Assembly: GCA_031178105.1 (NCBI GenBank)
Contig: JAPSJX010000014.1
Coordinates: 1-38,695 of the forward strand
Source of the DNA: Agrococcus sp.
GTDB taxonomy: Bacteria; Actinomycetota; Actinomycetes; Actinomycetales; Microbacteriaceae
Reading direction: 5' to 3'
DNA length: 38,695 nt
The first letter of the stretch is position 1; every line of letters begins with the position of its first letter. Below are positions 8,427 through 12,364 of this stretch, in pieces. A program made the position numbers and the translations under genes. The notes beneath the pieces are model-generated. The model made no database searches. It was not told where the DNA came from and worked only from the letters and a program-made list of their open reading frames with translations.

Positions 8427-10033
<1,607 letters not shown>

Positions 10034-10057
10034 CCTCGCGCCCGCGCGCTCATCGAG

Positions 10058-10121
10058 AGGTGCTCGCGCGGTCGGCAGGTGCCCGCCTGCGGGCACCCGC
10101 CGTCCCGTCGGGCACCTCTCG
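10058..10121. repeat. 64-nt imperfect palindrome, copy 1, upstream of the endonuclease-like gene
   Basis: AGGTGCtCGCGCGGTCGgcAGGTGCCCGCctGCGGGCACCcgccg...GGCACCTCTCG; outer arms CGAGAGGTGC (10054-10063) / GCACCTCTCG (10112-10121) perfect; inner GGTGCCCGC/GCGGGCACC perfect. Confidence 0.75.
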
Positions 10122-10186
10122 CGGTTGTCCACAGTGCGGGTAGCGGGTGGCGCGCGATCGGGCGTGCGCACGGCAGGGTGCGCGGC

Positions 10187-11092
10187 ATGGACATCCCGCT
10201 GCATGCGTCCGGCGTCGGCGACGGGCTCGTCCGGCTCGACCGCGACCCGCTCATGGAGCGGCTCCGGCGCGGGCAGTACGCGCCCGCGGATGCGCTCGCG
10301 GCCGCGAGCAGCGACGAGCGCTATCTCGCCTCGGTGCGAGCGGCCGTCGCAGCTCGGCCGGGTGCGGTCCTCGCGCGCGAGTCCGCGCTCGCGCTCGCGG
10401 GGCTGCCGTTCGGCAGGCCGACCGACGTCTTCACGATCGGTGATCCTGCCACCTCCGGATCGAAGGCCGGGGTGCGCAACTCGCACGTGCCCATCGCGGA
10501 GCAGGACACCGCCGTCATCGACGGGATGGCCTGCGCCTCCGTCGCGCACGCCCTCGCGGACATCGCGCGTCGCGGTGCGCAGCTCGATGCGGTCAGCGCG
10601 ACGGATGCGGCGCTGCGGCGCGCCGCTGTCTCCCGCGACGCGATCCTCGACGCCCTCACGCGCCAGGGGCCGCGCGGCCAGCGGCGAGCGCGCTGGGTCG
10701 TCGACTTCGCCGACCCGCGCGCCGAGTCGGTGGGGGAGTCGTGGAGCCGGGTGGTGCTCGCCCGGCTCGGCGCGCCGGCACCTGAGCTGCAGGCGCGCAT
10801 ACCGACCGTGACCATGGGCGACCGCTGGGTCGACTTCCGCTGGCTCCGCCCCGGGCGTCGCCCGCTCGCCGGCGAGTTCGACGGCTTCGTCAAGTACGGC
10901 GTGATCGCCGAGTCGCGCGGCTCGACGGGCGCCAAGGCGCTGTTCGACGAGAAGCGGCGCGAGGATGCGATCCGCTCGAGCCACGACGTCGCGCGCTGGG
11001 TGTGGGGCGACCTGCTGGGGACACCCGGGCTGGCGCGGATCCTGGCCGCGGCGGGGCTCGAGCTCGGCCAGCCGCGCTGCGCGCGATGGTGA
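10187..11092 (+). CDS. Uncharacterised protein, AbiEi/DUF559-like, with probable PD-(D/E)XK nuclease-fold C-terminus
   Basis: 301 aa; ESVGESWSRVVLARLG ... VDFRWLRPGRRPLAGEFDGFVKY ... FDEKRREDAIR resembles actinobacterial Vsr/DUF559-like proteins. Confidence 0.6.
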   Translation: MDIPLHASGVGDGLVRLDRDPLMERLRRGQYAPADALAAASSDERYLASVRAAVAARPGAVLARESALALAGLPFGRPTDVFTIGDPATSGSKAGVRNSHVPIAEQDTAVIDGMACASVAHALADIARRGAQLDAVSATDAALRRAAVSRDAILDALTRQGPRGQRRARWVVDFADPRAESVGESWSRVVLARLGAPAPELQARIPTVTMGDRWVDFRWLRPGRRPLAGEFDGFVKYGVIAESRGSTGAKALFDEKRREDAIRSSHDVARWVWGDLLGTPGLARILAAAGLELGQPRCARW

Positions 11093-11096
11093 CGAC

Positions 11097-11160
11097 AGGT
11101 GCCCGCGCGGTCGAACGGTGCCCGCAGGCGGGTACCGCTCGACCGCTCGGGGACCTCTCG
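11097..11160. repeat. 64-nt imperfect palindrome, copy 2, directly after the endonuclease-like gene
   Basis: AGGTGCCCGCGCGGTCGaaCGGTGCCCGCagGCGGGTACCGcTCGACCGC...GGGGACCTCTCG; ungapped alignment to copy 1 with about 50 of 64 identical by eye; nested arms GCGGTCGA/TCGACCGC perfect. Confidence 0.75.
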
Positions 11161-11239: not shown

Positions 11240-12364
11240 GTGACGGAGATCGAGATCGGCCGCAGCAAGCGCGCCCGCACCGGGTACGGCTTCGACGACA
11301 TCAGCATCGTGCCGTCACGGCGCACGCGCGACAGCGACCTCGTCTCGCTGCAGTGGCAGATCGACGCCTTCAAGTTCGAGATCCCGGTCATGAGCGCCCC
11401 GACCGACTCGGTGACGAGCCCCGCCACGGCGATCGCCCTCGGTCGCGCCGGTGGCGTGGGCGTGCTCAACCTCGAGGGCGTCTGGACGCGCTACGACGAC
11501 CCCGAGCCGCTGCTCGCCGAGATCGCGCGCCTGCCCGCCGACCTCGCGACGAGCCGCATGCGCGAGATCTACGCCGAGCCGATCAAGCCGGAGCTCATCC
11601 GCGACCGGCTCGCGCAGATCCGCGACGCCGGCGTGCCCGTCTCGGGCAGCCTCAGTCCGCAGGCCGTGCAGGAGCACTACGAGACGGTGCTCGCGGCGGG
11701 CGTCGAGCTCATGGTCATCCGGGGCGCGACGGTGAGCGCCGAGCACGTCTCGGCCGAGCGCGGCGCACCGCTCAACCTCAAGCAGTTCATCTACGAGCTC
11801 GACGTGCCCGTCGTGGTCGGCGGCGTCGTCACCTACACGGCCGCCCTCCACCTCATGCGCACGGGCGCGGCCGGCGTGCTCGTCGGCTTCGGCGGCGGCG
11901 CGGCGTCGACGAGCGAGAGGGTGCTCGGCGTGGCAGCCCCGATGGCGACGGCTGTGAGCGACGTCGCCGCGGCCCGGCGCGACTACCTCGACGAGTCCGG
12001 CGGCCGCTACGTGCACGTCATCGCCGACGGCTCGCTCGGCACCTCCGGCCAGGTCGTCAAGGCGCTCGCGTGCGGCGCCGACGGCGTCATGCTCGGCACC
12101 GCGCTCGCGCGCGCCACGGATGCCCCCGGCCGCGGCTGGCACTGGGGCCCGGAGGCGCACAACCAGAAGCTGCCTCGCGGCAACCGCGTGCAGGTCGACC
12201 AGGTCGGCCCGCTCGACGTCGTGCTGAACGGACCGTCACCGGTCGCGGACGGCACGGCGAACATCATGGGCGCGCTGCGCAAGGCGATGTCGACGACCGG
12301 CTACAAGGATCTCAAGGAGTTCCAGCGGATCGACGTGGTCGTCGAGAGCAGCCCGCCGCGCTAG
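11240..12364 (+). CDS. guaB3: GuaB3-family IMP dehydrogenase-related protein
   Basis: 374 aa; EIEIGRSKRARTGYGFDDISIVPSRRTRDSDLVSLQWQIDAFKFEIPVMSAPTDSV; IMPDH-like barrel without CBS domains. Confidence 0.92.
   Translation: MTEIEIGRSKRARTGYGFDDISIVPSRRTRDSDLVSLQWQIDAFKFEIPVMSAPTDSVTSPATAIALGRAGGVGVLNLEGVWTRYDDPEPLLAEIARLPADLATSRMREIYAEPIKPELIRDRLAQIRDAGVPVSGSLSPQAVQEHYETVLAAGVELMVIRGATVSAEHVSAERGAPLNLKQFIYELDVPVVVGGVVTYTAALHLMRTGAAGVLVGFGGGAASTSERVLGVAAPMATAVSDVAAARRDYLDESGGRYVHVIADGSLGTSGQVVKALACGADGVMLGTALARATDAPGRGWHWGPEAHNQKLPRGNRVQVDQVGPLDVVLNGPSPVADGTANIMGALRKAMSTTGYKDLKEFQRIDVVVESSPPR

Follow-up and report, generated by a model that had tools for sequence, protein, structure and literature searches.

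To our knowledge, REP sequences and their RAYTs are the only dispersed bacterial palindromes served by a dedicated enzyme. RAYTs define REPtrons (PMC3733652), occur in single copy and are apparently unable to move themselves (PMC3116915). The locus described here lies in a 38.7-kb window (the whole stretch of DNA that was analyzed) from the MAG of a soil-dwelling Agrococcus and resembles REP/REPIN-RAYT systems (PMC3116915, PMC3733652, PMC8266576) in that a single gene, hereafter the owner, stands between palindromes with many cognate copies scattered in relatives. Further likenesses to REP/RAYT are the presence of several distinct owners per genome, each of them single-copy, and the existence of polymorphic sites. 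The differences concern the enzyme, an AbiEi-like/PD-(D/E)XK protein instead of the Y1 HUH transposase that is a RAYT, and the palindromes: in place of GTAG-tagged REPs of 20 to 40 nt, we find nested dyads of 55 to 80 nt in actinobacteria with, in this subfamily, a 19-nt internal repeat, and the GTAG tag is absent from both copies that bracket the gene.

The owner protein has described relatives of its own. Its N-terminal part is like the AbiEi type IV antitoxins, but unlike in AbiE systems there is no adjoining gene for an AbiEii nucleotidyltransferase toxin (the neighbors are guaB and guaB3), and the AbiEi-like part is followed by a nuclease core. An E-x-D-G core is common to the window protein and the families DUF559 (PF04480) and REase_MTES_1575 (PF18741). 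A weak structural likeness (Foldseek E above 1) links the nuclease core to EDxHD/Vsr-like homing endonucleases (I-Bth0305I) and to TnsA; unlike these, the owner is associated with no intron or inserted target gene, and TnsB/C partners are absent beside it. Within the open-access literature, which leaves most subscription papers and bioRxiv outside, we found work on REP/RAYT but no link of DUF559, AbiEi or PD-(D/E)XK proteins to dispersed palindromes, nor any account of flanking ones for DUF559 or REase_MTES_1575.

Results

A gene between two matching palindromes at guaB

The features of the locus are as follows (positions are those of the window).

8468 to 10033, plus strand: guaB (IMP dehydrogenase), left neighbor (Pfam IMPDH, E 8.9e-154)
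10054 to 10121, no strand: upstream palindrome (copy 1), 68 nt, ending 65 nt ahead of the ATG
10058 to 10067, plus strand: half-site 1 of copy 1 (AGGTGCTCGC)
10077 to 10086, plus strand: half-site 2 of copy 1 (AGGTGCCCGC), 19 nt past half-site 1
10089 to 10098, minus strand: half-site 3 of copy 1, inverted
10108 to 10117, minus strand: half-site 4 of copy 1, inverted
10187 to 11092, plus strand: owner gene, 301 aa, with AbiEi-like N-terminal part and PD-(D/E)XK-type core
10253 to 10681, plus strand: AbiEi-like region, residues 23 to 165 (PADLOC AbiEi, E 4.9e-10; Foldseek 6y8q)
10730 to 11017, plus strand: predicted PD-(D/E)XK-like core, residues 182 to 277 (invariant E184, D216, E230, D232, K236 and E255)
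11093 to 11160, no strand: downstream palindrome (copy 2), 68 nt, directly 3' of the stop codon
11097 to 11106, plus strand: half-site 1 of copy 2 (AGGTGCCCGC)
11116 to 11125, plus strand: half-site 2 of copy 2 (CGGTGCCCGC), 19 nt past half-site 1
11240 to 12364, plus strand: guaB3 (IMPDH-related), right neighbor (Pfam IMPDH, E 2.5e-40)

A first-pass annotation, made from the sequence alone, had described two like palindromes of 64 nt agreeing at about 50 of 64 positions, each of them folding into a long hairpin, around a gene between guaB and guaB3. This description holds: a repeat finder returned, close to that claim, two copies of 68 nt that align without gaps at 78% identity, and Pfam places IMPDH domains on both sides. 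Self-folding energies are −57.9 kcal/mol for copy 1 and −54.1 kcal/mol for copy 2 (z −8.3 and −7.8), and 0 of 200 dinucleotide-preserving shuffles folded as well as either palindrome. Five palindromes reach the cut-off in a scan of the whole window, and the bracketing pair are the two longest. The owner gene runs from its ATG at 10187 to its TGA at 11092, and copy 2 starts at the first base past this stop codon. In each left arm the motif AGGTGC (once CGGTGC) occurs twice, 19 nt apart (10058/10077 and 11097/11116), a feature that the first-pass annotation had missed. A search for RNA families at the locus returned no known family.

Two observations concern the surroundings. The gene guaB3 lies directly 3' of the window cassette and is absent within 1.5 kb at the other Agrococcus loci, and at L078, in another genus, an owner homolog also lies ahead of guaB3. 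At L037, L041, L042 and L129-L131, paired GACGCGATATATCGTGT-type dyads stand to the right of guaB, ahead of two genes that by eye look DUF4097-like and PadR-like; these dyads look like ordinary operators with no relation to the owner palindromes.

The owner protein

PADLOC models of AbiEi cover residues 23 to 165 of the window protein, and an AlphaFold2 model built on an alignment of 44 homologs (pLDDT 93.2) predicts a C-terminal PD-(D/E)XK-like core, an alpha-beta fold with conserved acidic residues. The earlier description of an AbiEi/DUF559-like protein with a PD-(D/E)XK C terminus was therefore right, and, where the absence of a nuclease fold had been raised as a counterargument, the model has this core together with catalytic-type residues (the six listed above) that are invariant across the 44 sequences. 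Such conservation fits a working nuclease. The top solved structure in Foldseek was the AbiEi antitoxin 6y8q (E 2.9e-3, nothing falling below 1e-3), followed by weaker matches of the PD-(D/E)XK type, namely, R2 retrotransposon proteins, I-Bth0305I, TnsA and 3hrl. A Pfam search with the window protein gave no family, DUF559 and REase_MTES_1575 included (below detection); distant owner paralogs do match these two families, and several of them clear the DUF559 cut-off. Three homologs (L057 to L059) had been suspected of premature stops, which was rejected since their stops are natural C-terminal ends, and we count these genes as intact.

Palindrome pairs accompany the gene family

Related proteins across the actinobacteria recurrently lie between matching long palindromes. 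Among 50 homolog loci (set 1; palindrome score of at least 15 within 300 nt of the gene), strong palindromes stood on both sides at 17, and all 17 pairs were alike; in the control, 172 genes in 400 kb of genome G021, 2 genes had palindromes on both sides and 1 an alike pair. For the second set, another collection of genomes supplied 80 loci, with up to 400 nt permitted upstream; it was mostly non-Agrococcus, with genera including Cryobacterium, Actinomyces, Microbacterium, Cellulomonas, Knoellia and Williamsia, and 10 Agrococcus loci overlapped set 1. Here, palindromes were present upstream at 36 loci, downstream at 40 and on both sides at 20, 18 of the pairs being alike, versus 0 of 157 neighboring genes with palindromes on both sides; at least one palindrome was found at 56 of the 80 loci, and about 30% lacked a strong palindrome under this rule. 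A third set, obtained by a profile search of six genomes, held mostly more distant DUF559-type paralogs (4 of its 30 loci belonged to the first family) and, with a slightly looser palindrome rule, showed alike pairs at 12 of the 30. The upstream and downstream copies match at a given locus, and their spelling varies from owner to owner.

Dispersed copies follow their owners

Eleven owner palindromes were searched jointly against 13 related genomes, with flanking copies counted and both strands taken once. Dispersed copies of a genome's own palindrome were common among these genomes, at no fewer than 15 distinct places in G049, at least 12 in G021 and at least 11 each in G026 and G027, and the likeness of the copies spanned the full 60 to 70 nt and reached 96%. 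The genome-wide search for copies that the first-pass annotation had proposed returned, for the MAG to which the window belongs (65% complete), nothing beyond the flanking pair except short matches, none of them in a hairpin. That annotation had also named, as a counterargument, a repeat scattered with no tie to the gene; the repeat is indeed scattered in relatives, yet its copies go with the gene family, each genome having a version of its own.

This correspondence is specific. Seven owner palindromes from three genomes matched those genomes and the sister G017, with no match in G023 or in the three genomes that lack a close owner (G003, G012 and G015). In G001, two weak matches (E 2e-4 and 7e-4) were to a query palindrome from G004. 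Within Agrococcus, owner distance and palindrome distance go together (Mantel r 0.74, reached in 0 of 2,000 permutations, relatedness uncorrected), and where a genome has two or three owner paralogs, their palindromes are unrelated. The 18 palindromes found in 400 kb of G021 form four families that correspond to four owners of G021, with family-owner match scores of 26 to 70 versus 14 or less for shuffles; two of these owners have a palindrome on one side only.

Other palindromes were seen in passing. In G017, palindromes of the type of A. terreus L066 lie at C1:1651403, 999361 and 1521332, no such owner was found in this genome, and they are possibly an orphan population. In G021, about 10 strong hairpins with GGTCGAGGCC-type stems are packed into 52 kb (C1:953493-1005362; L113-L116), several of them paired 250 to 600 nt apart and none matching the four tested owners, and another family of repeated hairpins (GTTGAGG...TCGGCCCGATGTGA) occurs at C1 809089, 927891, 1137627 and 1217150, its owner not having been found.

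Orphan palindromes as in G017, and copies directly past a stop codon, a position frequent for REPs, would be expected if the palindromes were spread by something else, for example a RAYT or IS, and the gene were merely trapped between two of them. We give this explanation very little credit, since the Y1 transposase domain (PF01797) was found in none of the 14 carrying genomes by a search that was positive in 5 of 14 control genomes, and since one gene family is flanked repeatedly, with its own spelling per owner.

A common geometry of the palindromes

Behind the different spellings lies a common plan. Across 125 flanking palindromes, one half of an arm matches the other when displaced by 19 nt (identity 56% versus 29% in shuffled sequences, z 27), and in 68 of them the best internal repeat is at 19 nt; this repeat is mostly absent from the palindromes of the more distant paralogs. 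Among 25 copies of the G021-type family, the AGGTGC half-sites, four per copy, hardly vary, and the spacers do vary but with their complementarity kept: 15 pairs have changed on both sides, and 86% of cells are paired versus 28 to 43% when the spacers are slid, both figures being uncorrected for relatedness.

Four half-sites set out by a constant 19-nt ruler would accommodate a bound protein, and the owner has an AbiEi-like N-terminal part and an upstream copy 65 nt ahead of its ATG. The palindromes may thus be operators at which an AbiEi-like regulator represses itself and a regulon at dispersed sites, the nuclease-like part serving for binding only. We consider this unlikely, since likeness over the full length of the copies goes beyond what independent operators would need, the spacers outside the half-sites remain complementary, the catalytic-type residues are invariant, and the gene has another copy on its downstream side.

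Turnover of cassettes and copies

In Agrococcus, the owner gene is found next to guaB, in one orientation or the other, and much of the genus has it at this one chromosomal position. Five Agrococcus genomes (G005, G007, G011, G018 and G019) have a guaB site without the cassette, and among the three cassette-free intervals that were read, those of G019 and G011 contain a lone palindrome. Between G022 and G014, guaB is 96% and the owners are 94% identical; between G016 and G022, guaB is likewise 96% identical, the owners are only 51% identical and the cassette is inverted, which suggests that the cassette was replaced en bloc. When G021 is compared with G009, several of the dispersed copies have no counterpart at the corresponding site, and some of these absences may be losses; base-exact insertion junctions were sought in the same comparison and given up, the spacers being too diverged (the species are ~92% identical). 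The polymorphic sites, cassette-free sites and swapped and inverted cassettes indicate turnover. The empty sites for which the first-pass annotation had suggested looking thus exist; as to its possible small mobile unit, the gene mostly keeps its one chromosomal place and is swapped or inverted there. In G007, whose assembly is 8% contaminated, the guaB region is present twice in opposite orientation on one contig (C3:264463 and C3:128930), which may reflect a genuine duplication or an artifact of assembly.

Cassette-free guaB sites, and a cassette replaced between species whose guaB is 96% identical, are also what a homing-type element might leave behind: the nuclease, whose core weakly resembles the EDxHD enzyme I-Bth0305I and DUF559 folds, would cut cassette-free alleles, and repair would copy the cassette into the guaB site, the dispersed palindromes being by-products or decoys. 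This appears improbable, as it explains neither the many cognate palindromes elsewhere nor why owners at many unrelated loci have a palindrome on each side. AbiEi relatives are present in a defense-system library, and the palindromes could accordingly mark "self" DNA or serve as decoys for a defense nuclease that attacks incoming DNA. Such a role predicts protection, not long paired copies that appear and vanish between sister species, and a search for plasmid or phage vehicles gave three weak plasmid matches and zero phage matches; we regard it as highly improbable.

Discussion

In our view, the locus is best explained as a REP/RAYT-like system of owner and palindromes with an unrelated nuclease, to which we assign a probability of roughly 60%. 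The first-pass annotation had already likened the layout to REP/RAYT units while noting that the nuclease fold differs, and dispersal, cassette-free sites and the PD-(D/E)XK-like model lend support to it. We infer that the owner nuclease binds, cleaves and copies or mobilizes its palindromes. The gene would be the owner of a non-autonomous palindrome family. Recognition of the cognate palindrome would fall to the AbiEi-like N-terminal part of the protein, which probably acts as a dimer or a dimer of dimers and would read four half-sites, that is, a motif present twice per arm, 19 nt apart, with a spacer that is kept complementary. The PD-(D/E)XK part may then cut DNA at or beside the palindrome, either as a duplex or as an extruded hairpin, and repair or replication would copy the palindrome into a new site. 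We propose that copies accumulate in this way, with the gene staying at one place between two of them, and that each lineage and paralog has its own spelling because owner and palindrome change together. The two bracketing copies may, furthermore, allow the cassette to be inverted or exchanged as a block.

With slightly less assurance than for the locus itself, we favor the broader proposal of a widespread, RAYT-independent class of palindrome-spreading systems in actinobacteria, in which AbiEi-like/DUF559-type PD-(D/E)XK owners multiply their cognate palindromes, on a 19-nt ruler in this subfamily and with repeated changes of specificity. If this is true, a second, unrelated family of enzymes follows the logic of REP and RAYT, and the arrangement would have arisen more than once. 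Actinobacterial proteins annotated as DUF559 or AbiEi-like would gain a role, and they would provide a set of natural specificities in DNA recognition, each with its own site, that lend themselves to direct tests.
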